Shown piece after piece: positions 5,866-22,487 of a stretch of DNA of 33,563 nucleotides. The stretch spans positions 1-33,563 of the forward strand of contig JALTBO010000044.1 in NCBI GenBank assembly GCA_027075275.1, read 5' to 3'. This DNA is from Desulfurobacteriaceae bacterium. Lineage in GTDB: Bacteria > Aquificota > Aquificia > Desulfurobacteriales > Desulfurobacteriaceae. Position 1 is the stretch's first letter, and the number at the start of each line of letters is the position of its first letter. A model generated the notes under the pieces. The model was not told the DNA's origin and made no database searches. It saw nothing but the letters and a program-made list of their open reading frames with translations. The position numbers and the translations under genes are program-made.

Positions 5866-6387
5866 CTACTGCTCCTTAAGTTCTTTCAGGAACTTTGCGA
5901 AATAGTCAAAGCCTGTATATAGGGCAACAAGGGCAGAAAGTATCAGGAGGAGCTCCCCAAGACTCTTAAACCCGGAAAGAAGCAGAACAACGGAAGCCAT
6001 TATAAGAACAGTTTTCAGCTTCCCTCCTTTAGAGGCCGGAATAACAAGCCCCCGGGAAGCCGCAATGGCCCTCATTCCCGTAACTGCCTCTTCCCGCCCA
6101 ACTATGGTTATAACCGAGTAAGGATCGCACAGTTTTACGTAGGCAAGAGAGATAAGTGTTGAGGAGGTAAGGAGCTTATCTGCAACCGGGTCTAATAGAA
6201 TTCCCAAACTGGTTACAGACTTCTGTTTTCTGGCTATGTAGCCGTCTAAAAAGTCTGTAACGGCCGAAACTATGAAAAGCAACATGGCCAGAAGGAAATG
6301 GCCCTTAACTATGAAAACGACGATGAACGGCAAAAGGAGAATTCTTAAAAGGGTGAGGAAGTTGGGAACTGTCTTTACCCTGCCCAT
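5866..6387 (-). CDS. pgsA: CDP-diacylglycerol-glycerol-3-phosphate phosphatidyltransferase
   Basis: PgsA makes phosphatidylglycerol phosphate from CDP-diacylglycerol and glycerol 3-phosphate in the inner membrane. The 173-residue protein has the complete CDP-alcohol phosphatidyltransferase signature: D45, D48-G49, A52-R53, G62, D66 and D70 in exact family spacing, within DFLDGYIAR and LGILLDPVADK. Hydrophobic helices flank it. The ATG overlaps the dnaN stop by one base (TGATG), indicating translational coupling. Another CDP-alcohol transferase is possible, but length and motif context favour PgsA. Confidence 0.9.
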   Translation of the reverse strand: MGRVKTVPNFLTLLRILLLPFIVVFIVKGHFLLAMLLFIVSAVTDFLDGYIARKQKSVTSLGILLDPVADKLLTSSTLISLAYVKLCDPYSVITIVGREEAVTGMRAIAASRGLVIPASKGGKLKTVLIMASVVLLLSGFKSLGELLLILSALVALYTGFDYFAKFLKELKEQ

Positions 6388-7481
6388 CAGACCTTCATCG
6401 GCATCACAACGTTTTTGAGCTGAGGTTCATCTTCACTGGCTATGAGAACGGGCGTCAGCTCTTCACCGAACTTCATTGTGATGGTTTCTCCGTCAAAGGA
6501 GCTGATAGACTCAATCATGTGGATAATGTTGAAGTTGATGGAAAAGGGCTCCCCTGAATAGTCAACGGGAATTGTTACTTCTGCCTCTTCAGGAGATTCC
6601 CCTTCAACGTTACTCGCCTGAAGCGTGAGCCTGCCATCTTCAAGGTTAAACCGAACAGCCATAACTTCGTCTTTGTCAAAGATGATTGAAACCTCTTTCA
6701 GAGCTGATAGGAGCTCCTCCCTATCGGCAGACATCGCAACAGGGTTGTCCTCAGGAATAACCGCCGTATAGTCTGGATACTCACCCTCTATGAGGGATGT
6801 CCACATAACCGTATCTCCACTGCTGAAGTAGAGCTTGTTACCCTGCTCCGCAACGGAGACCTCCTCACCCTCTCTGAGGACCTTCTTAAGCTCGCTGAGG
6901 GATTTTTTCGGAATGATAGCACTGAACCCTTCAGACGGGATTAAAACCTCGTAGAGGGCCAATCTGTGGCCGTCAGTGGCAACTGCGTGGAGACGGTCTC
7001 CGAGGGAGCGGAGAAGAACTCCGGTTAAAACGTATCTGGCTTCATCTCTACTGGCTGCGTAGGAAACCTTCTTAATTGCCCTGTCTATCTCCTCTGAGGG
7101 AAGGGTAATTGGGTAAGAAGAGGGGAGCTCTATCTCTGGGAACTCGTCAGGTGGAAGGGTAGCAAGTGAAAATCTTGAGTTGGCAGACTTTACAGTGAGC
7201 TTAGAATCTGAAGTCTCAATGTCTATCTCATCTCCTGTGAGGGATGAAAAGAGCTTTGCAGCCTTGTTTGCGTTAACTGTTACCTTTCCTCCCTCCTCAA
7301 CTTCACAGTCTATAACTGTTGAAACCCCTATTTCAAGGTTTGTAGCGGTCAGCCTTAAGGTGTTGTCCTCAGCCTCAAAGAGGATGTTAGAGAGAATGGG
7401 AATCGTTCCCCTCTTATCGGCGGCAGATGAGGCCAGTTTGACTGCATCCCGAGCTTTCAGTTTGCTGACCCTAATTTTCAT
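6387..7481 (-). CDS. dnaN: DNA polymerase III beta subunit (sliding clamp)
   Basis: The ring-shaped clamp tethers DNA polymerase III and other partners to DNA. Its 364 residues match three clamp domains of about 120 residues each. Recognisable stretches are KRGTIPILSNILF (about 23-35), ATDGHRLALYEV in the middle domain and NFNIIHMIESI in the last domain. The ATG has a strong GGAGG seven bases upstream, inside the AT-rich part of oriC. The gene order dnaA-oriC-dnaN is the classic bacterial origin arrangement, and pgsA follows with overlapping stop and start. Confidence 0.97.
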   Translation of the reverse strand: MKIRVSKLKARDAVKLASSAADKRGTIPILSNILFEAEDNTLRLTATNLEIGVSTVIDCEVEEGGKVTVNANKAAKLFSSLTGDEIDIETSDSKLTVKSANSRFSLATLPPDEFPEIELPSSYPITLPSEEIDRAIKKVSYAASRDEARYVLTGVLLRSLGDRLHAVATDGHRLALYEVLIPSEGFSAIIPKKSLSELKKVLREGEEVSVAEQGNKLYFSSGDTVMWTSLIEGEYPDYTAVIPEDNPVAMSADREELLSALKEVSIIFDKDEVMAVRFNLEDGRLTLQASNVEGESPEEAEVTIPVDYSGEPFSINFNIIHMIESISSFDGETITMKFGEELTPVLIASEDEPQLKNVVMPMKV

Positions 7482-7532
7482 TCTTATTCCTCCCTATATA
7501 GAGTATATATACAGTGATTACTACATATATCA

Positions 7533-7544
7533 TAGTAATAATAA
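7533..7544 (-). promoter_or_regulatory. Candidate DnaA-trio element in the unwinding region
   Basis: On the minus strand, reading away from the DnaA boxes, the bases are TTA-TTA-TTA-CTA. These are four consecutive triplets fitting the [C/T]T[A/T] pattern that mirrors the DnaA-trio motif known from Bacillus subtilis origins. It lies in the AT-rich part of oriC. The nearest perfect DnaA box is about 65 bases away, farther than in B. subtilis, so the assignment is tentative. Confidence 0.35.
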
Positions 7545-7545
7545 G

Positions 7546-7566
7546 AGTGCACTTTTTTTGTGCACT
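7546..7566. repeat. Perfect 7-bp stem with T7 loop inside oriC
   Basis: AGTGCAC (7546-7552) and GTGCACT (7560-7566) are perfect inverted repeats separated by seven T residues. The element sits between the candidate DnaA-trios and the box cluster. It has no trailing T-run outside the stem on either strand, so it is not a typical intrinsic terminator. It could be an operator or a structural element of the origin. Confidence 0.6.
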
Positions 7567-7609
7567 TAAGATAAAAATTCTTGCCTCTCTTTGGCTTAAG
7601 CCACAAAAG

Positions 7610-7767
7610 TTATCCACATAGTGTGGATAACTTGCCGATTTTCCTGTGGATAACTGGTGTGGATAACTTTTTCCTGTGGATAACTTCACATTTTCCTCAT
7701 GAGTTATCCACACCTTTTTAGTTATCCACATAATTATCCACATAGTTATCCACACCGGTGTGGATAA
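7610..7767. repeat. Cluster of ten consensus DnaA boxes
   Basis: TTATCCACA on the plus strand occurs at 7610-7618, 7704-7712, 7722-7730, 7734-7742 and 7746-7754. The inverse form TGTGGATAA occurs at 7622-7630, 7645-7653, 7658-7666, 7675-7683 and 7759-7767. All ten match the consensus without mismatch. Three boxes (7722, 7734, 7746) are spaced exactly 12 bases apart in the same direction. The last four lie within the dnaA coding sequence. DnaA-ATP is expected to bind here to start replication and probably to autoregulate dnaA/dnaN. Confidence 0.95.
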
Positions 7768-9142
7768 CTCGGGTTGACCTATCTACCGCTTCCTTTATTT
7801 CAAGCTCTAACCTGTCTAACCTATTCTTCAGCTCCTCATCCTCTTTGAGGAGCTCCTCAACCTTCCTTACAGCGTGGATGACCGTTGTGTGGTCGTCCCT
7901 CTTAAAGGCGGCTGCTATCTGTGTGTAGGGGTAGTTTCCCACCTTCTTGGCCATAAACATTGCTACCTGTCTTGCAAGGGCTACCTGTTTCTTACGGCTG
8001 GGGCTGTCTAAGAGCTCCACGCTTACTTCAAACTCCTTTCCAACCATCTCTTTTATGATTTTCAGCGAAATTTCTTTAATCTTCCTCTCTTTTCTCTCCC
8101 TGTCGTTTTCAGGAAGGAAGAGCTCTTTCACCAGTTTTTCGTTTATAGGTCTGCCCTCTAATGTTGCCTTCGCCTTCAATTTTACGAGAGCTCCCTCAAG
8201 CTGCCTTATGTTTGACTTTATCATCGTTGCAAGGAGCTTTATGACCTTGTCGCTTACTTCTATTCCTTCCTCTTCCGCCTTTCTCTTCAAAATTGCAACC
8301 CTCGTTTCAAAATCCGGAGGCTGGATGTCTGCTATGAGTCCCCACTCAAAGCGGCTCCTGAGCCTCTCTGTGAGGGTTGGTATGTCTTTTGGGGGTCTAT
8401 CACTTGTTAGAACAACCTGCTTTCCTGCATCGTAGAGGGCGTTGAAGGTGTGGAAGAACTCAATCTGTGTTCTCTCTTTTCCACCTATAAACTGGATGTC
8501 GTCTATCAGGAGGACGTCAACGCTTCTGTACTGCTCTCTGAACTTGTGGATGTTGTCTGACTTTAACGCCTCTATCAGCTGGTTCATGAATGTTTCCGTT
8601 GTTGTGTAAACGATTTTCTTCGTGGGATCTTTTTTCAGAATGTAGTTTCCTATTGCCTGCATCAGGTGGGTCTTTCCAAGGCCTACTCCACCGTAGATAA
8701 ATAAAGGGTTGTAAGCCTTACCGGGGTTTTCTGCAACGGCAAGGGCGGCGGCGTGGGCAAACTGGTTGCTTGATCCCACAACGAAGTTCTCAAAAGTGTA
8801 TTTTGGGTTGAGGTTTGAGTTTATTTTAGGAGTTTCCTGAGGAAGTTCTCTCTTTTTCTTCTCTAACAGCTGGAAAAGGTCTGGCTGTTTGGGAGTTTCT
8901 GCCTCTTCGGGAGAGAGGAGCTCCACCTTCAGCTTCTTCTTAAAGGTCTTCTCTGCTGCCTCTTCAAGGAGTTTCAGATACTGCTTCTCAAGAAGGCTCT
9001 TGACAACTTTATCTCTGGTTTTGAGTTTCAGACTTTCGCCGGAGAGCTCTATCAGCTTCAGGTCTTTAAAAAGGTTTTTATAGAGCCCCGGCTTTACCCT
9101 CTTCTTTATCTCCCCCAAAAAGGCCTTAAAAGCTTCAGCCAC
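7718..9142 (-). CDS. dnaA: Chromosomal replication initiator DnaA
   Basis: DnaA binds oriC and opens the DNA. The 474-residue protein has a short N-terminal domain I (about 1-85), a linker, an AAA+ core starting near NPKYTFENFVVG (112-123) with Walker A GGVGLGKTH (151-159) and Walker B VLLIDDIQF, and a C-terminal DNA-binding domain IV with RDDHTTVIHAVRKVEEL. The extreme C-terminus VIHTGVDNYVDNYVDN is encoded directly by DnaA boxes of oriC, so the tail is a by-product of origin sequence. The start overlaps the upstream glycosyltransferase by eight bases. Confidence 0.97.
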   Translation of the reverse strand: MAEAFKAFLGEIKKRVKPGLYKNLFKDLKLIELSGESLKLKTRDKVVKSLLEKQYLKLLEEAAEKTFKKKLKVELLSPEEAETPKQPDLFQLLEKKKRELPQETPKINSNLNPKYTFENFVVGSSNQFAHAAALAVAENPGKAYNPLFIYGGVGLGKTHLMQAIGNYILKKDPTKKIVYTTTETFMNQLIEALKSDNIHKFREQYRSVDVLLIDDIQFIGGKERTQIEFFHTFNALYDAGKQVVLTSDRPPKDIPTLTERLRSRFEWGLIADIQPPDFETRVAILKRKAEEEGIEVSDKVIKLLATMIKSNIRQLEGALVKLKAKATLEGRPINEKLVKELFLPENDRERKERKIKEISLKIIKEMVGKEFEVSVELLDSPSRKKQVALARQVAMFMAKKVGNYPYTQIAAAFKRDDHTTVIHAVRKVEELLKEDEELKNRLDRLELEIKEAVDRSTRVIHTGVDNYVDNYVDN

Positions 9143-12890: not shown

Positions 12891-14198
12891 CTATTGTTTA
12901 ATTCCTCTTATATTAAAAGTTTTCAATATCTCTGTTTTTAATTTTTTAAATATTCTTCTTTTTAAGTGTAGGACTTGAATATCAAGGTTTTCCATATTCC
13001 TGATTTTTTCGTCTTCAATTAGAGTTTTAAGTCCCAATCCTAAAGCTACCAGTTTTTTACTATCTGATATATTCCAGACTTTTTTTTCACCTGGGAGCTC
13101 TGGATATAACAGAACTCCTATCGGAATTTGGATGTTTTTCCTTTCTGTTAAAACATACATGTAGGTGATAACCTGAAATCTGTCTGATTGATACACTCCA
13201 CCCGATTCTGAGGAAGTATTAGAAGGATATTTCCATTTTGTATCTATAACTATGTATTTTCTTCCTCCTATAGGCCACAAAATATCTGGTTTAAGAATGA
13301 AATCTGTGTCTATACTTTCAGTACTCTGAGCTATAAACTCTGGGGAAGATTTAGCTACAAATGATTCAAAGAGTTTATTCATATCGTAAAGAAAGACGAA
13401 AGATGTTCCTTCAGAGCTAGTAAGACTTTTATTAAGGAAAAGTAACCTTGATAGCTGAATAGCCGGCTGATAATGGTTATTCATTCTATCAATATGAACT
13501 TGTTTTAAAGCTTCAACCATGCTTTTAGGAGGAGTGACTCCTAAATTTTTAAGATAAAGAGAAATCTTACTGGCAAGATTTTTTATCTTTGAATTTCTAA
13601 ACCTTGAAGCTACGAATTCTGTAAGTCCTATTAAAATTTGATTAATAAGAACATTTTCAGTAAGTGTCTCCTTTTCTATTACAAATTTAGTTTTTTGGAA
13701 GGGAAATTTCAGTAGTGTTTTTGATAGTAAAATTTTCCCGTTCATACTTTTTGAAATGAGCGTTTCTCTCGCGTAGCTTTTGTAGATTCCCGGTTGGATA
13801 ATCTTCTTTTCTATATAAATTAAAGTCAGAAGAATTACTATTTCAAGAAACGGTATATTGAAGTCTAAGTTTTTAGAGTAGATACTTCCTCCTGCTAGTG
13901 GTTGTTTAGTTAAGTCTAATAGATCATAAAATAGTATAGTTAGCAGTTTTCTTGCATTTAAAATTTCTCTTTGTTTTAATTCCCTGTTATAATTACTATA
14001 AATTTTAGGTAAAATTTCTATAGTTTTACCGCTAGATAAGAGAATAAGGCCGACATACTGACTGAATCTTATTCTCTTATCATCAATTCTTAAATTAAGT
14101 TTAGCTTTTCTATTTAAGAGTTTTAACTCCCTAATTTCCTCATTAGTGAATACATCTCTCTTTATAGAGCTATACTCATAGACTACGAGATGTTTCAT
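12891..14198 (-). CDS. mcrC: McrC-like restriction nuclease subunit
   Basis: McrC proteins bind McrB and supply the PD-(D/E)XK nuclease that cuts DNA carrying modified bases. I place the start at ATG 14198, preceded by AAGGA, giving 435 residues; a longer frame to 14255 exists but would overlap mcrB by 80 bases. The N-terminal part is a beta-rich McrB-binding region beginning HLVVYEYSSIK. The nuclease motif is visible near the C-terminus: D305 in KPDILW, D319-T-K321 in VIDTKWK, then Q343-x3-Y347. It overlaps the end of mcrB by 23 bases, implying translational coupling. The codon and base usage is AT-rich. It contains the only GAGCTC site of the whole 12-20.5 kb island. Confidence 0.88.
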   Translation of the reverse strand: MKHLVVYEYSSIKRDVFTNEEIRELKLLNRKAKLNLRIDDKRIRFSQYVGLILLSSGKTIEILPKIYSNYNRELKQREILNARKLLTILFYDLLDLTKQPLAGGSIYSKNLDFNIPFLEIVILLTLIYIEKKIIQPGIYKSYARETLISKSMNGKILLSKTLLKFPFQKTKFVIEKETLTENVLINQILIGLTEFVASRFRNSKIKNLASKISLYLKNLGVTPPKSMVEALKQVHIDRMNNHYQPAIQLSRLLFLNKSLTSSEGTSFVFLYDMNKLFESFVAKSSPEFIAQSTESIDTDFILKPDILWPIGGRKYIVIDTKWKYPSNTSSESGGVYQSDRFQVITYMYVLTERKNIQIPIGVLLYPELPGEKKVWNISDSKKLVALGLGLKTLIEDEKIRNMENLDIQVLHLKRRIFKKLKTEILKTFNIRGIKQ

Positions 14199-16482
14199 TT
14201 TGTTCCTTGTTTGGGTTGGATTGTGGATTTGCAGTATCGGAAGTAAATCTTTCAAGAATACTGAGAACTCTTTCTTTGTTTTCTTTCATATCAAGGAATT
14301 TAATTTCTCCATATTCATCAATAATATAGTTTTCAATTTCTTCATTTCCTCCTAATATCTCTATCAATGAACTCCAGTCATCGTAAAAGTACTCCTGTAA
14401 AAGAGGTAAAACTTTATTGGCTAAAATAGTAATCAATTCCTCTAACTTCATATTTTGAGGAGTTCTCTTTAAAGGTAAAAAGTATGCATGTCCAATTGTG
14501 AAATCTTTACCCTTCCTCTCTTTTATTTTCTTATTTAATTTCTCCAGGAATTTCCCTATATTTAAGTTTCCAACCCGAATATCATATAACAAAGATGTAT
14601 CAGGCAGAAATTCTTCAAAATTAAACCTTCTTCTTAAAGCAGCGTCAAGCAAGACAATACTTCTGTCTGCAGTATTCATTGTTCCGATAATATAAAGGTT
14701 TTTGGGAACACTAAAAATTTCGCGTGAATATGGCAAGATTAAGCTCATCTCCTCCTCTGAGCCTAACCGTTTTGTTTCTTCAATGAGGGTTATTAGTTCT
14801 CCGAAAATAGATGGAATATTTCCTCTATTTATCTCATCTATTATAAGTACTACATTTTCAGCTTCGTTGAAATTGAAATAGCTCTCTCCTCTGAAGTGTT
14901 TATTCAGGTACTTTTGTACTGTCCGTTTGAGATCTCTGTAGTCTGTAAATCCATTTTTCCTAATTTCTTTGTCTAACGCATACCATAAAGCATGATAAGT
15001 TGCTATCTTAAATATGCCATCTTTTACTTCGTAGTGTATGTTGCCTTCTTCATCTGTTTCAGCCCAAATTCCTTCCATAAATGTTTCGTAAGAAGTAGAA
15101 GGGTGAAATGTTACAAATGCTATTTTCCAGTTCTTATCTTTTGGAGATGTGAAAAGAAGTTTTCTAAACTCACTGGTTACATCTTTAACTTCACCTTTTT
15201 TTATTATTTCAACTGCTCTTTTTCTTACACTGTAAGTTTTTCCCGTTCCCGGAGGACCATAAAAAATTGTATTACAGGGAAATGTTAAAGAGTTTTCAGA
15301 AATAGAGATTTCTGTTGTTATTTCCTGGTTTTCAGTGAAAGCTTCAAAGTTAACATTGTTAGAACTGAGTCTTCTCCTTTCTGAACAATCATTTTCGTCT
15401 TTTTTCCTTGAATTTAATAAGAATGCAATTTCCATCATAGATTCTATACCTAAATCTATTCTTAGTTTGTTGAGTTCTATAAGAAACTGTTCTAAACACT
15501 GGAGGTTTCTGGAATCCTGACCAACGCATCTTTCTTTATTTCCGCTGTAGTTTGGGTTAACTTCTTCTGTAATTTCTTTCCACCACTTTTTAACTACAAC
15601 TGTACCTATATCATCAGATATTGGAATATAAAATTCAGGATTAATAACATGTGCTATTAAAGTAATAAAAGAATTGATATTGCCGTAGCCTTCCCTCTGC
15701 AGTCTTCTTACTTGTGATGTAAAGTTTCTGATACTGATTTCATAGTTGTTTTTATTAGTGTTGATTACTGTATTGACAATTTCTTTTAATGAGTTTTCTT
15801 TGAATAATCTAGAGATATTAGGACTGATTATTCTTACTGAAAAATAAGGTATATTACTGGTAAGTTTACGGTAGCTATCTTTGTTAAATTGGGAATTTTC
15901 TATATAGGACATTATATCTTCTTTTAAGTTGTTAATCGTTTCCCGTAATGACTCTTTTGATTCGTGCCATTTGTTTGAATACAGATGTACCAGCCACTTT
16001 AAGTATTCTCTTTTGACAGGAGGTTTCTTTAAGTATGGTTTTCCTGTTGTTTCGTCTATATCCCAATAACCGTGTTTAGATGGTTCATACAGTTCAAGTA
16101 TTGAATCGTCTGTAATTCGATTGTTATTGACAGCAAATAAACAGTTATATTTGTTAACTACCTGATATGTAGTGTTATATTTACGACTGCAATAATTAAT
16201 GCATGTTTGTTTTATACTTTCATCTATCCATTGATACTTTTCTATTTGCGGAAAGTCTTCTTTTAGAGTTTTTATTATGTATTCTCGTATATCTCTTAGT
16301 TGTGCATATCTCTTAGAGTTTATGTATGAACATGTTAATTGTCTGATTTTATCCTTTAGATTTTCTTTAATTGCATCTGTATTTCTTTCAGTGTTATCCA
16401 GTGAGGTTTGTGAGTTTTGACTCGTTGATACCCTTCCAGAGATTCCTAATCTTTTTCTTAAAGGACTGAAGTCAAAATTCAT
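14176..16482 (-). CDS. mcrB: McrB-like AAA+ GTPase of a modification-dependent restriction system
   Basis: McrB proteins recognise modified DNA with an N-terminal domain and use GTP to translocate and activate McrC. This 768-residue protein has a long, unrecognised N-terminal region (1-400) containing several Cys residues, then the AAA+ motor: Walker A GPPGTGKT (409-416), Walker B VLIIDEINRG (545-554), the family-specific MNTADR (602-607) and the arginine-rich ALRRRF. MNTADR is diagnostic of the McrB clade. The N-terminal region would be the target sensor and shows no EVE, YTH or DUF3578 signature that I can confirm by eye. The ATG follows the HerA stop directly (TAAATG), with GGAGG upstream. 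It overlaps mcrC by 23 bases. Confidence 0.9.
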   Translation of the reverse strand: MNFDFSPLRKRLGISGRVSTSQNSQTSLDNTERNTDAIKENLKDKIRQLTCSYINSKRYAQLRDIREYIIKTLKEDFPQIEKYQWIDESIKQTCINYCSRKYNTTYQVVNKYNCLFAVNNNRITDDSILELYEPSKHGYWDIDETTGKPYLKKPPVKREYLKWLVHLYSNKWHESKESLRETINNLKEDIMSYIENSQFNKDSYRKLTSNIPYFSVRIISPNISRLFKENSLKEIVNTVINTNKNNYEISIRNFTSQVRRLQREGYGNINSFITLIAHVINPEFYIPISDDIGTVVVKKWWKEITEEVNPNYSGNKERCVGQDSRNLQCLEQFLIELNKLRIDLGIESMMEIAFLLNSRKKDENDCSERRRLSSNNVNFEAFTENQEITTEISISENSLTFPCNTIFYGPPGTGKTYSVRKRAVEIIKKGEVKDVTSEFRKLLFTSPKDKNWKIAFVTFHPSTSYETFMEGIWAETDEEGNIHYEVKDGIFKIATYHALWYALDKEIRKNGFTDYRDLKRTVQKYLNKHFRGESYFNFNEAENVVLIIDEINRGNIPSIFGELITLIEETKRLGSEEEMSLILPYSREIFSVPKNLYIIGTMNTADRSIVLLDAALRRRFNFEEFLPDTSLLYDIRVGNLNIGKFLEKLNKKIKERKGKDFTIGHAYFLPLKRTPQNMKLEELITILANKVLPLLQEYFYDDWSSLIEILGGNEEIENYIIDEYGEIKFLDMKENKERVLSILERFTSDTANPQSNPNKEQNETSRSL

Positions 16483-18651
16483 TTATTCCTCCACAAATAT
16501 TGGTGTTAAATCTTCTAGATCTGGTATAGGAGAGAAAATTTCTGTTCTTTCTTCTATAGACTGAGAAGCGATTTTTCCTTTTTTAAGCTCGGTAATTAAC
16601 TCTTTTAGCTTCAATAAGTTAATATTACTTACTACCTGGGCAATTCTATCGTTTGTATTTTCAAACTTTATAGGAACAGGAACAGCTTTTCTATGGAGAG
16701 CATCCACATGGGTTAAAACCATCCACTCTCCAGGAAGATAAGAGAGTGTTTGATCCAGAATGGAGGATTCTATTCCAAAAGCTTCTGCTACTCTTTCTCT
16801 ATCAGTTTTTTTAGGAAGTTTACTTACAAAATAAGTTGCTAATTGCGCAGTGATGCTTGTATCAAGGTACGTTACTCTTTGGGTTGCTATTGCAAGTCCC
16901 AGTCCGTACTTTCTTCCCCTTCTTGCGAGCGTGGTTGCTATCTGTTTTGCTTTTTCTATGGCATTCTTTTCCTCTTTTGTTCCTGAGGGAGTGTAGGGTA
17001 TGAAAAGATCTGCTTCTTCAAAGAGGAAAACTGTTTGAGGACTATTATTGATATGTCCATTTTTGCGAATTTTGTAGAGGGTATTTCCAAAATTATAAGC
17101 AAATTCTCTAATGTTATTGTCATCTTCACTTATCAAAATAAATAGTGAGCCTTTATTGTCATGGCTTTTCATGATGAGTTCCTGAATAGTTATACCGTTT
17201 AGATATCCTGTCATTTTTAATATCTCTTTTGCTAAAACCTGATACTCAACTATAAGTTCCTCTAATTTTGGAAGAATAGAACCGGATAGTTTTTCTATTT
17301 CGTTTGTTTTGTTACCTAAGAGTGTTTCAATTATAAAGTTCAAAGATGGGTCCTTAAGGGAGGCTTTACTATTCTTTAGAAATAACTTAAATGAAGTTAA
17401 AACCTCTAATATTTTCTGAGCTATATAGGGATTAAAGCTTGAATCCAAGAAACCATTCACTTCAAGATATTTGCTTAATATATCAATTAATCTTACTAAG
17501 AGTTCCTTTTTAGCTTTACTTCCTTGGCCAGTAAAGTTTATTTTGTTCAGGGTTTGATACAGATCATTCAAAACTTCTATTACTAATTTGCCATGAGTTA
17601 GGATTCTTACTTTCCCTGTTAAAAGAAGATATTCTGCCAAGAGGTAGATCTTTTCTATTAGGTCAGGTTTAAGTAAAGCTTTAGGAAACGTAGTTCTATC
17701 TATTAGTTCTTTGGAGGCTTGCTTAATAATTTTTTCATTTACTACTCCCCTAAGAAAGAGGCTGAGACTTCCACCAGGGTCATCAAGGAAAACAATTCCT
17801 CCATCTATCTGTAGAAGAACATCTATCAGTAATCCTAAGTATTCGTTATTGATGTCGTAAACAAAGATGTTGGTCGGGTTGTTATCTTTATTTTTTGTTT
17901 CAATAAGTGATTTATAAATGAGGGTACTTATTAGATTACTTTTTCCTGCTCCTGTGAATCCAAATAAGGCAAAATGTCTGTTAAAGAGAGGTTCTTGGTC
18001 TATATATACATCTATATCCGGAAAAATTTTGTGTTTTCCTGCTTTGAATGAAAGCTCTCTCTCTGGGATTTCTCCATTTATAAAGTCATCTAAATACTGA
18101 GGTTCTATTATGTAAACTTTTTCTCCACTTATTGGTAGTTCACTAGTCTTTTTAAAAGCAGGAATTTTTTCTAATCCCAACTCAACTGCTTTTTCTGGAG
18201 TGCATATGATTAGTTCTTCGTCATGGCTTATTGCTTTTACTATAATTTTCAGGGTTTCCTTTTCTGGTTCATAGGCGTGTCTATACCATTCTTCCATGAA
18301 TTTTGAAAATGCTTCTTCTATTAAAAAGTCCTGTGGATTTTCTGAAAGTTCCTTTATCTTATAATGCACTATATCTACATCAATGATTTCAAGGATGGAG
18401 TAATGTTCTTCTAGGTTTTCATATTTTGTTTTTGTATCTGTAACACTTATACTTGCAAAGTTTTTGACTGCAAGGAAAATACCGGGTTTTAGGAGTTTTG
18501 CAACCTCTATGGAGTAAGGGAACCATATTTCATACGTATTCTTACTGGGAATTAGAAATCCATTAAGGAAAATTTCTTTATGTGTTTCCTCTCCTGTTAA
18601 ATCGTATAACGTTTTGAATATTGTCTTTTTTATTTCAGTTAGGGTGCTCAT
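16483..18651 (-). CDS. HerA/FtsK-superfamily ATPase in the McrBC operon
   Basis: This 722-residue protein is a HerA-type (DUF87-like) hexameric ATPase, a class known to translocate DNA and to power nucleases or other effectors. The N-terminal 200 residues are beta-rich and could be a HAS-barrel-like region. Walker A is GFTGAGKS (231-238), Walker B is VFLFEEAD (541-548), and ARRGRKYGLGLAIATQR follows, as in HerA proteins. A long helical insertion (about 300-500) separates the motifs, more than in archaeal HerA. No nuclease motif is seen in this chain and no NurA is next to it. The ATG has GGAGG seven bases upstream, and the stop abuts mcrB. Composition is AT-rich like its neighbours. Confidence 0.85.
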   Translation of the reverse strand: MSTLTEIKKTIFKTLYDLTGEETHKEIFLNGFLIPSKNTYEIWFPYSIEVAKLLKPGIFLAVKNFASISVTDTKTKYENLEEHYSILEIIDVDIVHYKIKELSENPQDFLIEEAFSKFMEEWYRHAYEPEKETLKIIVKAISHDEELIICTPEKAVELGLEKIPAFKKTSELPISGEKVYIIEPQYLDDFINGEIPERELSFKAGKHKIFPDIDVYIDQEPLFNRHFALFGFTGAGKSNLISTLIYKSLIETKNKDNNPTNIFVYDINNEYLGLLIDVLLQIDGGIVFLDDPGGSLSLFLRGVVNEKIIKQASKELIDRTTFPKALLKPDLIEKIYLLAEYLLLTGKVRILTHGKLVIEVLNDLYQTLNKINFTGQGSKAKKELLVRLIDILSKYLEVNGFLDSSFNPYIAQKILEVLTSFKLFLKNSKASLKDPSLNFIIETLLGNKTNEIEKLSGSILPKLEELIVEYQVLAKEILKMTGYLNGITIQELIMKSHDNKGSLFILISEDDNNIREFAYNFGNTLYKIRKNGHINNSPQTVFLFEEADLFIPYTPSGTKEEKNAIEKAKQIATTLARRGRKYGLGLAIATQRVTYLDTSITAQLATYFVSKLPKKTDRERVAEAFGIESSILDQTLSYLPGEWMVLTHVDALHRKAVPVPIKFENTNDRIAQVVSNINLLKLKELITELKKGKIASQSIEERTEIFSPIPDLEDLTPIFVEE

Positions 18652-18662
18652 TAGTTTCCTCC

Positions 18663-20468
18663 TTAAAAGAGAGCTTTTTCGGCTTTTATTTTTCTGATTC
18701 CTTCTTCTATATAGTTTTGTATCTTAAATAACCTGAATAAGTTTCTATCCTGTAAACAGTTTATTACGAAGCTGATATCAATGGAGAAATTGAGTCCCAC
18801 ACCTGAAGTCAATCCAAAGGTTGAGATTCCAACGACTTCTCCATTTTCCTTAACAGTGGGTCCTCCGGAATTTCCGGGATTAATTAAGATTGAATGCTGA
18901 ATTGTTCCTAAGAATACGTGGTGTTCCTCTTTTTCGTTTTCAATGTTGTTGTAGACATGACTTATTATTCCTTCTGACATACTTAAAGCCAATCCGCTGG
19001 GATAACCAAATGCGTAGACTGTTTCTCCCTGCCTTATTTGTGGGGTTCGCCGTATTCCAAAAAATTTGTGAGGTCTTTTAGAGTATAGTGTGAAGACGGC
19101 AAAGTCAAATTTCCTGAATACTATATTGCCTAAAAGGACCTGGTCGTAAATTTCCTTTACGGGAACGTAAACTTCAGAAACTTTAAAATTCTGATTATCT
19201 ATTCTGACGAAAATTCCTATGTTTATATCGTCTCCCTTCTGGTAATATTCAGAAAGCCTGTTTAAAATTGAGTGTATCGCCTGAATATTGTGTAGATTCG
19301 TTAGAAAATAAAGTTTGTAGCCGTGTGGTGTTTTAACTTGCTTGTATATGAAGCATGTTCCTGACACAGTGATGGGGTTGTTTCCTGATTTTCCAGTTAT
19401 GTATATTGGGAAAACACTGTCTTCTGCTATTTCTGTTAATTTTTCTTTTGATGGAGTGTTAAATATTATCCCTGCTGAAGGAAGCTGGAAACTTTCGTTG
19501 ACTGGACTGGTAATATGAGTATTTTGGAGTTTTTCTCTGGGTATATTGAAGTCTTTGAGGATAGTTAGAAGATTGCTTATTAAATTTTGATCTTTGCATT
19601 CCAAGGTTTCAAGTAATTTGAGTAATTTTGCGATTGCTACTGCAAACACAGGAAGAGTGGAAGTGTTACCTGATTGAAAGTAGGAATCTATATTTTTGGA
19701 GATTCTTTTGAGGTTAGGATAAAGTTTTACTATTAACGGGTAAAGGGATTTAACTATGGTTAGTAAATTTTCTTTATTTGTGGTATTGTTGTTTAAGATA
19801 TCTTCAATAGTAAGTATGGTTTTAACGATAATTACTCCCATTTTCTCCAGAATTTCTTCTGATGGTTTAAAGTTCAGGATATAATAGGCAATTTCTTCCA
19901 TTACTATTTTGAGTCCAGAAATTAGAGAGTTTAGTGTCTGATAGTTGGTAGGCGTTCTATCCCTTAAAAGGCTTAAGATATCTCCAGCTATGTCTAAATT
20001 AACTTCAAGTGATAGATTGTTATTTATACTTTTGGCCTGATTTATTAGATTTTTAAAGATATTTACAAGTTCCAGTTCTAAAAATGTTAGAGCTAAATGG
20101 CGAAACGCAGCGCTATGGTTTTGGTTTAGTAATGGTTCTGGATTATCAATGAGTTTCTTTAGCTCATTTTCTATTTCTTCATAGAATAGAGCCAGATAAG
20201 GATACAGATAAACTTTAGCTTCAAGAGGAGATTTAAAGAATTCCTCGTGAGCTGCCAGGTATAAGAGTTGATCAAGTGATTGGAAAATTTCGTTTAGTTC
20301 AATTTTATCAGAGGTTTGTAGTGTAAAGATGAGATTTTTTAATGTCTCTGAGAGCTTGATGAGGTCGGCTTTCCTTATCTTTTCTCCTGAATTTACTATA
20401 TCCATAAGTTTTTCTGTACTTTCTTTAATTTCTTCTATAGAATTTTTGAAATTCTCTTTCTCGTTCAA
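18663..20468 (-). CDS. Helical-repeat protein with C-terminal trypsin-like serine protease
   Basis: The 601-residue protein has two parts. Residues 1-330 are almost entirely leucine-rich helices, resembling a HEAT/TPR-like scaffold or sensor. Residues 350-570 are a trypsin-like (S1C/HtrA-like) protease with the triad H393 (LTNLHNI), D455 (FRKFDFAVF) and S534 in PGNSGGP. GYPSGLALSMSEG precedes the serine loop. No signal peptide or membrane segment is visible, so it should act in the cytoplasm, unlike periplasmic HtrA, and it has no PDZ domain. The start is TTG with AGGAGGG five bases upstream. It is the first gene of the AT-rich operon with HerA, mcrB and mcrC, 11 bases from HerA. A role as protease sensor or effector in defence is inferred. 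Confidence 0.85.
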   Translation of the reverse strand: MNEKENFKNSIEEIKESTEKLMDIVNSGEKIRKADLIKLSETLKNLIFTLQTSDKIELNEIFQSLDQLLYLAAHEEFFKSPLEAKVYLYPYLALFYEEIENELKKLIDNPEPLLNQNHSAAFRHLALTFLELELVNIFKNLINQAKSINNNLSLEVNLDIAGDILSLLRDRTPTNYQTLNSLISGLKIVMEEIAYYILNFKPSEEILEKMGVIIVKTILTIEDILNNNTTNKENLLTIVKSLYPLIVKLYPNLKRISKNIDSYFQSGNTSTLPVFAVAIAKLLKLLETLECKDQNLISNLLTILKDFNIPREKLQNTHITSPVNESFQLPSAGIIFNTPSKEKLTEIAEDSVFPIYITGKSGNNPITVSGTCFIYKQVKTPHGYKLYFLTNLHNIQAIHSILNRLSEYYQKGDDINIGIFVRIDNQNFKVSEVYVPVKEIYDQVLLGNIVFRKFDFAVFTLYSKRPHKFFGIRRTPQIRQGETVYAFGYPSGLALSMSEGIISHVYNNIENEKEEHHVFLGTIQHSILINPGNSGGPTVKENGEVVGISTFGLTSGVGLNFSIDISFVINCLQDRNLFRLFKIQNYIEEGIRKIKAEKALF

Positions 20469-20507
20469 GACTCCCTCCTGATTTATACAACATTAGAGAT
20501 ATTTTAA

Positions 20508-22487
20508 CTAATTTTCTGAAATTTCTGTTAAAACGGGGAATGGAACTGCTAAGCCGCTGATTACTCCACTGCCGGTCTGGAGCGTTGGCAGCAGGGAGGT
20601 TATGTCTCTGCCGGCAAACTCTACAAAGGTTTCTACTGCCTGTAAATCGTTAACGTTGATTATTCTAAACATTGCCTGTGTGTTTGTTTGGGCCAAAACG
20701 TATTTGCTGACCTGGGCTGGCCTCTGGGTGATTACGACAAGGCCTAAGTTGAACTTTCTTCCCTCTGCTGCGATTTTCCTTGCTGTGTTGAGGGCTAAGT
20801 TCTTCTTGTCTGCGGAGACGTCTCCGTAGCTCTTTTCAGGGGCGAAGTTGTGGGCTTCCTCAAGGATTAAAAGTCTTCTGTTTCTATCTTCTCTGTTTTT
20901 GAAGAAGAGCTCCTGCATGAATAGGCCTGCAAGGTTTACCCTTGTCTGCGGGTCTGTTATTTTGTTCAGATTTAGTATGAAGATTAAGGGTTTCGGTTCT
21001 TCGTTGGGGTTAAGGAGCTCCTCCAAACCCTTAATAACCTCTTCCTGATTTTCCCACTTTCCTGATAGGGTTCTGGTAACGTAGGTGTCTGAGATTAGCG
21101 GGTTGTTTCCATCTTCATCTTCTATCTGAGAGAGAAGTCCTTTAAGGTCTCCTGTTTTAAAGCCGGAGCTCCATATATCGGGCTTTACCCACTTGGCTAT
21201 TGTGTTTCTGTTTTTCTTGGCTGTTCTGCTGTTGCCGGAGATTAAATGGCTGTATCCCAGCTCTTTTATCAGCTCTTCAACTTCTTCAGGGTAAATGGGG
21301 AAGAGGGTATCTGAAATTTCCACTTCTTTAATAGTTTTCGGGTTAACTCCCATGTTTATTAGTCCCTGTTTGTATTCGCCGTGGGGGTCTAAGATGAAAA
21401 CTTCCGGCGGGTTTTCTGTTTTAACGGTTCTTTTTATGAAGAGTTTTGTAAAGTGGCTCTTTCCTGAACCTGTTGTTCCGAGAACTGCCATGTGTTTTGT
21501 GATTACTTCTTCAAGGTCTATAAAAACCGTTATGTTGCTGTTTCCCTCTAAATTTCCAATTTCTATTGGAGTTTTCATCTCTTTTCCTGAGAAGTTCTTT
21601 TTCATTACGTTGCTCAGTGTTTCTTTTGATGCTCTATAGACGCCGTTTCCAACGTCAAAGGGTTTTAGAGGTGTCTGGAGCTTCTGGCCGTTAATCTCTC
21701 CGACAACCTGGGCAACTGCTATCCTTACCCTATCTCCGTTCTCGTTGAGGTATGAGTAGGTGGCGGCCTTTTTCCAGCTGTTGTCTTTTCTTCCAGAGAA
21801 TAGGAGTTTGAACTGGTCTAAAGACCCGAAAACCTGAGATTCGCTTCCAGAGAACGGGTTTGCAAAGAATCCCATGTCGTATGAGTAGATGCTCTCAATC
21901 TTTCCTAAGATTTTTCTCTCTCCGTCCCTTACCTCAACGTAGCTCTGTTCTGTGATTTCAGGGTCTAAAAGGATAAACTCAAAGGAGCTTGACTTTACAG
22001 GGTTCAGAGCAAAGCCGATGAGGTCGTCTGAGAAGATAACAGTTCCAGGGTCTTCTTTTATCCTCTCAAAGTAGTCTGTAAGCTCTTTTACCTCCTCTCC
22101 GTCTGACGTGTCGTAGTAGACGGCTACCTCTATGTTTCCCTTTGAGTATTCAGACATTCCGGCCTCTGTAAAGTTGGCAGAGCCTACAACGGCCTTTTGA
22201 TCGTCTACAACTATGAACTTTGCGTGGAGACGGTTGTTGAGGTAGATTTTTCCTCCCTTTTCCCTTATCGTTTTGAAGACCAGCTCGTCTGTTATGAGAA
22301 GGTCGCGGAGCTCCGACCCTCTTAAGATAACCTCAATCTCTATTCCTTTTTCTGGGTCAACGTTCTCAAGGAGCCTTCTTACAAGAGAACCTTTAAGCCA
22401 CGCAGAGGCTATCTTTATGCTCTTTTCTGCTTCTCCTACAATTTTTTCTATCTCTGTGTAGATTTTGTCTCCATTTAAAGTTCTCAT
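20508..22487 (-). CDS. PLD-nuclease/HerA ATPase fusion protein
   Basis: The 659-residue protein joins a phospholipase-D-type nuclease domain to a HerA-like motor. The HKD motif is complete: H88-x-K90-x4-D95 and GSAN at 102-105 (LHAKFIVVD, VGSANFTEAG). A middle beta-rich region (150-300) resembles the HerA N-terminal barrel. Walker A is GTTGSGKS (337-344), Walker B is LLILEEAH (539-546), and ARKIAAEGRKFNLGLVVITQRP follows. A single HKD motif implies dimerisation to form the active site. Fusing nuclease and motor replaces the separate HerA-NurA pair of archaea, so DNA-end processing or restriction is the likely role. The ATG overlaps the stop of the small upstream gene (ATGA). Composition matches the core genome and includes four GAGCTC sites. 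Confidence 0.9.
   Translation of the reverse strand: MRTLNGDKIYTEIEKIVGEAEKSIKIASAWLKGSLVRRLLENVDPEKGIEIEVILRGSELRDLLITDELVFKTIREKGGKIYLNNRLHAKFIVVDDQKAVVGSANFTEAGMSEYSKGNIEVAVYYDTSDGEEVKELTDYFERIKEDPGTVIFSDDLIGFALNPVKSSSFEFILLDPEITEQSYVEVRDGERKILGKIESIYSYDMGFFANPFSGSESQVFGSLDQFKLLFSGRKDNSWKKAATYSYLNENGDRVRIAVAQVVGEINGQKLQTPLKPFDVGNGVYRASKETLSNVMKKNFSGKEMKTPIEIGNLEGNSNITVFIDLEEVITKHMAVLGTTGSGKSHFTKLFIKRTVKTENPPEVFILDPHGEYKQGLINMGVNPKTIKEVEISDTLFPIYPEEVEELIKELGYSHLISGNSRTAKKNRNTIAKWVKPDIWSSGFKTGDLKGLLSQIEDEDGNNPLISDTYVTRTLSGKWENQEEVIKGLEELLNPNEEPKPLIFILNLNKITDPQTRVNLAGLFMQELFFKNREDRNRRLLILEEAHNFAPEKSYGDVSADKKNLALNTARKIAAEGRKFNLGLVVITQRPAQVSKYVLAQTNTQAMFRIINVNDLQAVETFVEFAGRDITSLLPTLQTGSGVISGLAVPFPVLTEISEN

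Follow-up and report, generated by a model that had tools for sequence, protein, structure and literature searches.

Some bacteria have binding sites of DnaA, the replication initiator, within the 3′ end of dnaA itself. Replication of a minichromosome in Campylobacter jejuni requires 120 bp of the dnaA 3′ end carrying two DnaA boxes, and the cited part of that study describes an origin lying partly within a coding region as previously unreported (PMC6052347). In Bdellovibrio bacteriovorus, as outlined in the cited excerpt, two of the eight DnaA boxes are in the 3′ end of dnaA, ahead of the stop codon (PMC5124646). Two other descriptions, likewise cited in part, concern origin architecture more generally. 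Escherichia coli oriC has two oppositely oriented groups of boxes that carry facing DnaA pentamers (PMC10316083), and the rule for the basal unwinding system (BUS) places a DnaA box with at most two mismatches 0 to 16 bp from the DnaA-trios (PMC8287927).

The locus described here lies in a stretch of 33,563 nucleotides, the whole of which was analyzed and is referred to below as the window. Like C. jejuni, it has boxes inside the dnaA 3′ end at a dnaA-dnaN origin, but the passages cited for C. jejuni describe two boxes of divergent consensus, whereas the loci of the family examined here have four or five, nearly all exact, which form an added tail on the protein (PMC6052347). Similarly, the two boxes reported in the Bdellovibrio excerpt contrast with four of ten in the window, where they encode a repeat tail (PMC5124646). 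As in the cited account of E. coli oriC, the window boxes fall into two groups of opposite orientation, but all of them match the consensus exactly (PMC10316083); by analogy, two opposed groups of DnaA molecules would assemble on the array. The C. jejuni and Bdellovibrio precedents mean that boxes at this place in dnaA were already known, and it is the near-perfect multi-box tail that is new: its scale of four or five boxes, its occurrence throughout a clade, and its probable gain on a second occasion. Among the best-matching titles in the open-licence PMC literature, we found no box-coded DnaA end or C-terminal extension other than that of C. jejuni, and no study of an origin from the Desulfurobacteriaceae.

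Results

An array of exact DnaA boxes at the dnaA-dnaN junction

An exact-pattern scan of the window revealed ten copies of the DnaA box TTATCCACA within 158 bases (Table 1). The earlier note on this DNA had claimed ten perfect boxes in such an interval, three of them at a 12-base period, and the scan agrees, with the boxes starting at 7722, 7734 and 7746 keeping that period exactly. Read on the dnaA strand, the boxes are oriented + - - - - + + + + -, an order that is identical on either strand. When up to one mismatch was allowed, the window held 15 sites versus a mean of 6.17 in shuffled sequences, and 15 was reached in none of 100 shuffles. The draft genome, which comprises 136 contigs, has 24 exact boxes, 10 of which are in the array, and a reversed-pattern control gave 10 sites across the whole draft; no second cluster was present among the matches listed for this genome.

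Table 1 Features of the dnaA-dnaN junction in the window.
Feature	Position	Strand	Basis or remark
dnaN	6387..7481	-	ORF translation and Pfam
AT-rich presumed unwinding region, 128 nt	7482..7609	none	GC 0.30
DnaA-trio-like run TAGTAATAATAA	7533..7544	+	Polarity as described for single-strand DnaA binding
GTGCAC-N7-GTGCAC element	7547..7565	none	Fixed distance from array
Array of ten exact DnaA boxes	7610..7767	none	Pattern scan
Starts of exact DnaA boxes	7610, 7622, 7645, 7658, 7675, 7704, 7722, 7734, 7746, 7759		Pattern scan
Six non-coding boxes	7610..7717	none	Pattern scan; dnaA stop to presumed unwinding region
Four boxes within the dnaA reading frame	7722..7767	none	Starts 7722, 7734, 7746, 7759
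dnaA, 474 aa, C-terminal tail encoded by DnaA boxes	7718..9142	-	Pfam Bac_DnaA and Bac_DnaA_C
Tail VIHTGVDNYVDNYVDN	7721..7768	-	Four boxes translated as VIH once and VDN three times

The locus was compared with those of 22 genomes assigned by the grouping tool to a single family, which we take to be the Desulfurobacteriaceae (Aquificota). The dnaA gene was found in 19 of these; G005, G007 and G014 gave no dnaA match, and two weak matches, L028 and L029, were excluded as not dnaA. That the array consists of chance repeats or is an artefact of assembly has a negligible probability, and this reading was dropped, as no point was found in its favor: shuffled sequences fall short of the number of sites in the window even when one mismatch is allowed, and arrays of this kind recur in 19 genomes that were assembled separately.

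The presumed unwinding region

As in a dnaA-dnaN oriC, the box cluster is accompanied by an adjoining AT-rich region, here situated between the array and dnaN. On the dnaA strand this region contains the trio-like run TTATTATTACTA, whose four units compare with the minimum of three DnaA-trios for a BUS and were matched in none of 500 shuffles. Runs of at least three units were found at 15 of the 19 family loci and are absent from the other 4. The window thus resembles the BUS, as defined in the cited text, in having a trio run of the right polarity beside the array, but where the BUS has a box next to the trios the window has a GTGCAC pair instead (PMC8287927). No box with at most two mismatches lies 0 to 16 bp from the trios in the window, and the best box-like sites in the 40 nt before them have three mismatches at a distance of 21 nt and four at 14 nt. 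With its array, AT-rich stretch and trio-like run, the region looks like a dnaA-dnaN origin, as judged from its sequence.

The position of the pair beside the trios is shared across the family. At 18 of 19 loci, two TGCA motifs 13 nt apart begin 53 to 54 nt from where the last array box starts, two of the 18 having one TGCA arm only; the reference box was chosen by alignment in seven loci, and was the last exact box for two of g7 and a box with one mismatch for the five of g3 and g4. The 43 nt separating the pair from the array have a mean identity of only 36% among 12 representatives. The exact GTGCAC pair pattern was present in 12 of the 22 family genomes, with one occurrence in G000. In G006, twin DnaA boxes (TTATCCACAATTCCACAGCC) followed by trios are found where the others have the TGCA pair, and Clostridia resemble G006 in having twin DnaA boxes and then trios at a comparable place. 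Runs of at least four trio units were detected at 33 of 79 loci from other phyla, mostly following twin box-like sites and a GC-rich gap, the preceding sequence being assessed by eye. We tentatively suggest that the family has its own type of origin, in which the unwinding-distal half of the scaffold lies in dnaA and the GTGCAC pair replaces the twin DnaA boxes bordering the trios; the pair might be recognized by DnaA, as weak sites with a TGCAC core, or by another origin protein.

The tail of DnaA

Translation of dnaA terminates in VIHTGVDNYVDNYVDN, and it is the last four boxes of the array that encode this tail, as the earlier note had read it. The Bac_DnaA_C match ends at residue 428, the alignment of most homologues reaches only to approximately residue 445 to 452, and in the AlphaFold2 model (mean pLDDT 80.9, pTM 0.41), made from an alignment without tailed relatives, residues 461 to 474 have a pLDDT below 50. 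These results indicate that the tail is an extension beyond domain IV, also in keeping with the earlier note. The alignment used, A1, had 23 rows, none of them tailed, and the structure prediction therefore says little about the tail itself. Left out of A1 were L054, whose stretch contains stops, and L072, L084, L085 and L102, which were not tested singly.

Tailed and untailed relatives

The earlier note had offered two alternatives, that the origin and the end of dnaA had grown together or that the tail has a role, and had proposed comparing DnaA ends and stop positions in related species. In that comparison all 19 family loci had a box array, which is coding at 11 of them and non-coding at 8. 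As in the window, with its four, boxes lie before the dnaA stop at those 11 loci, which belong to genera g1, g5 and g7 and to G008 of g2; G001 has five coded boxes, and in G004 and G015 a fourth coded box, changed at one position, accompanies three exact ones. At the other eight loci (G006, g3, g4 and g6), the first exact box follows the start of the stop codon at a distance of 4 to 18 nt, and these genomes keep 6 to 12 exact boxes as non-coding DNA.

In five of the eight untailed genomes (G006 and four of g3), an in-frame TAA directly precedes V/L-I-H, so that translation continued past it would give VIH or LIH, with which the tail begins. Of the 11 tailed genomes, 8 have GAA, CAA or AAA as the equivalent codon and 3 have CGA, so that mostly a single base change would convert one state into the other. 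In the remaining three untailed genomes (g4 and g6), dnaA ends in a different context. Since coding and non-coding arrays alike are kept, and in five of the eight untailed relatives a stop in frame directly before the first box separates the two states, the first of the two alternatives, merging of the origin with the gene end, is supported.

On a dnaA tree from which the tail had been trimmed, the clade of g1, g5 and g7 is tailed throughout (10/10), and a second clade of nine members (clade B) is tailed only in G008. The fewest changes of tail state on this tree is two. The sequences suggest a second, independent gain in G008, the likeliest history being one gain in the first clade and this one, although the tail of G008 may have been retained, with several losses elsewhere in its clade. 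With the root and the branching of clade B weakly supported, the change of state may have been gain or loss of the tail.

Codon use inside and outside the boxes

Across the 11 tailed genomes, the codons within the boxes are invariant (GTG 33/33, GAT 33/33, ATC 11/11 and CAC 11/11), and a second codon occurs in none of the eight in-box columns. By comparison, among 40 upstream codons of domain IV in the same genomes, more than one codon is used in 14 of 16 columns with an invariant residue (Fisher p = 6e-5, which is descriptive only because columns and genomes share ancestry). Only two changes were found in boxes, both nonsynonymous, AA to AG, exchanging N for S. Outside the boxes the linker residue varies between Y, F, S and H, and the asparagine whose third codon base lies outside the box has become lysine in 4 of 33 places. 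Frozen codons in the boxes together with variable linkers point to constraint on the binding sites and not on the peptide. The earlier note had named, as a result that would count against it, relatives with the same tail and synonymous changes that destroy the boxes; these were sought in the 11 tailed genomes and are absent.

Frame keeping was also considered as a sign of tail function. The coded boxes are spaced 13, 12 and 12 in all 11 tailed genomes, and some short non-coding spacings differ by one base, which could hint that the frame is being kept, but the non-coding intervals 23 and 54 do not vary within the tailed clade either. Constant coded spacing does not therefore discriminate, and since fixed spacings are not peculiar to coded boxes, this candidate was rejected. 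No linker codon has turned into a stop in the 11 tailed genomes, among which few such changes were available.

Box-coded ends outside the family

The survey of other families drew on 104 matching genomes, of which 13 were omitted for partial or split matches; L101 and L150 were excluded because the C-terminus was not matched. From 50 Thermaceae genomes, 48 (L201-L248) remained after removal of G159 (no match) and G180 (split match). An exact box within the last 90 nt of dnaA was found in none of 90 other members of the phylum, in 5 of 79 loci from other phyla, and in none of the 48 Thermaceae, with 0.12, 0.10 and 0.02 boxes, respectively, expected from single-base shuffles. The five positives were four Candidatus Omnitrophota (L069, L105, L111 and L120) and one Clostridia MAG (L106). 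Their boxes lie in the last 35 nt of dnaA, with translations such as LVDK, IVDK, TVDN and LWI. From their sequences, we regard these as independent and milder overlaps; judging by the counts, boxes overlapping dnaA are uncommon, but a lesser version has arisen outside the family.

The Thermaceae loci resemble the window in having many exact boxes straight after dnaA, with a minus block followed by a plus block, and differ from it in that the final 90 nt of the gene contain no exact box. Approximately 6 to 11 exact boxes lie downstream of dnaA in these genomes, and in 27 of 48 the distance between the first base of the stop codon and the start of the first box is exactly 7 nt.

Discussion

The above considerations make it very probable that a putative oriC lies between dnaA and dnaN, that its boxes are conserved for DNA binding, and that the tail is their unavoidable and tolerated translation. 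By comparison with known origins, DnaA would bind the ten boxes as two half-arrays of opposite orientation, the AT-rich stretch adjoining the array would open, and the trio-bearing strand would be held by DnaA. The dnaA stop would have come to lie inside the array because the tailed clade lost, or never acquired, an in-frame stop just ahead of the first box. The frame stays open because a box has a stop in only one of its six readings and the 12-base period preserves the frame. The boxes would then be maintained for DNA binding, with their translation tolerated at a flexible end of DnaA. Most likely, the box-coded tail is a readthrough into origin DNA that is constrained as DNA, and a harmless by-product.

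Two other explanations were weighed against this one. The tail could have a function as protein, for example in contact between DnaA molecules, in binding a partner, or in turnover, with the boxes kept partly for the peptide. The frame and the 13/12/12 spacing conserved in every tailed genome would fit such a function, as would the near-identical tail given by the probable second gain in G008. It is nonetheless improbable, given that the boxes show zero synonymous variation, residues outside them change freely, N to K included, and 8 of 19 family members have no tail; the low pLDDT at the C-terminus is a weaker point against it, in view of the alignment used. The comparison of codon use inside and outside the boxes gave no support for protein-level selection, and the second alternative of the earlier note, a role for the tail, is not borne out.

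The overlap could instead be regulatory, with DnaA on the coded boxes blocking transcription from dnaA into dnaN, a form of autoregulation. Four boxes do lie at the end of dnaA, and dnaN is the next gene in the same direction, but a non-coding array between the two genes would act alike, so the overlap itself adds nothing to a regulatory reading, which we consider unlikely as the explanation of the overlap. A regulatory role could hold alongside the by-product explanation.

In the window, a single stretch of DNA forms an exact protein-binding array and at the same time encodes the end of the protein that binds it, a clean natural case in which, because close relatives carry the same array uncoded, constraint on the DNA can be separated from constraint on the protein. 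The family also provides comparative support for the claim, made for C. jejuni, that part of an origin can be coding sequence.

Elsewhere in the window, a 328-aa ORF at 261-1247 resembles an IS5-type transposase by eye. A low-GC block occupies 12891-22487, with GC near 0.30 from 12 to 20 kb, and is possibly a defence island. Inspected by eye, the block appears to contain a McrBC-type GTPase-like gene (14176-16482), two HerA-like ATPase genes (16483-18651 and 20508-22487), and a gene for a trypsin-like protease (18663-20468).
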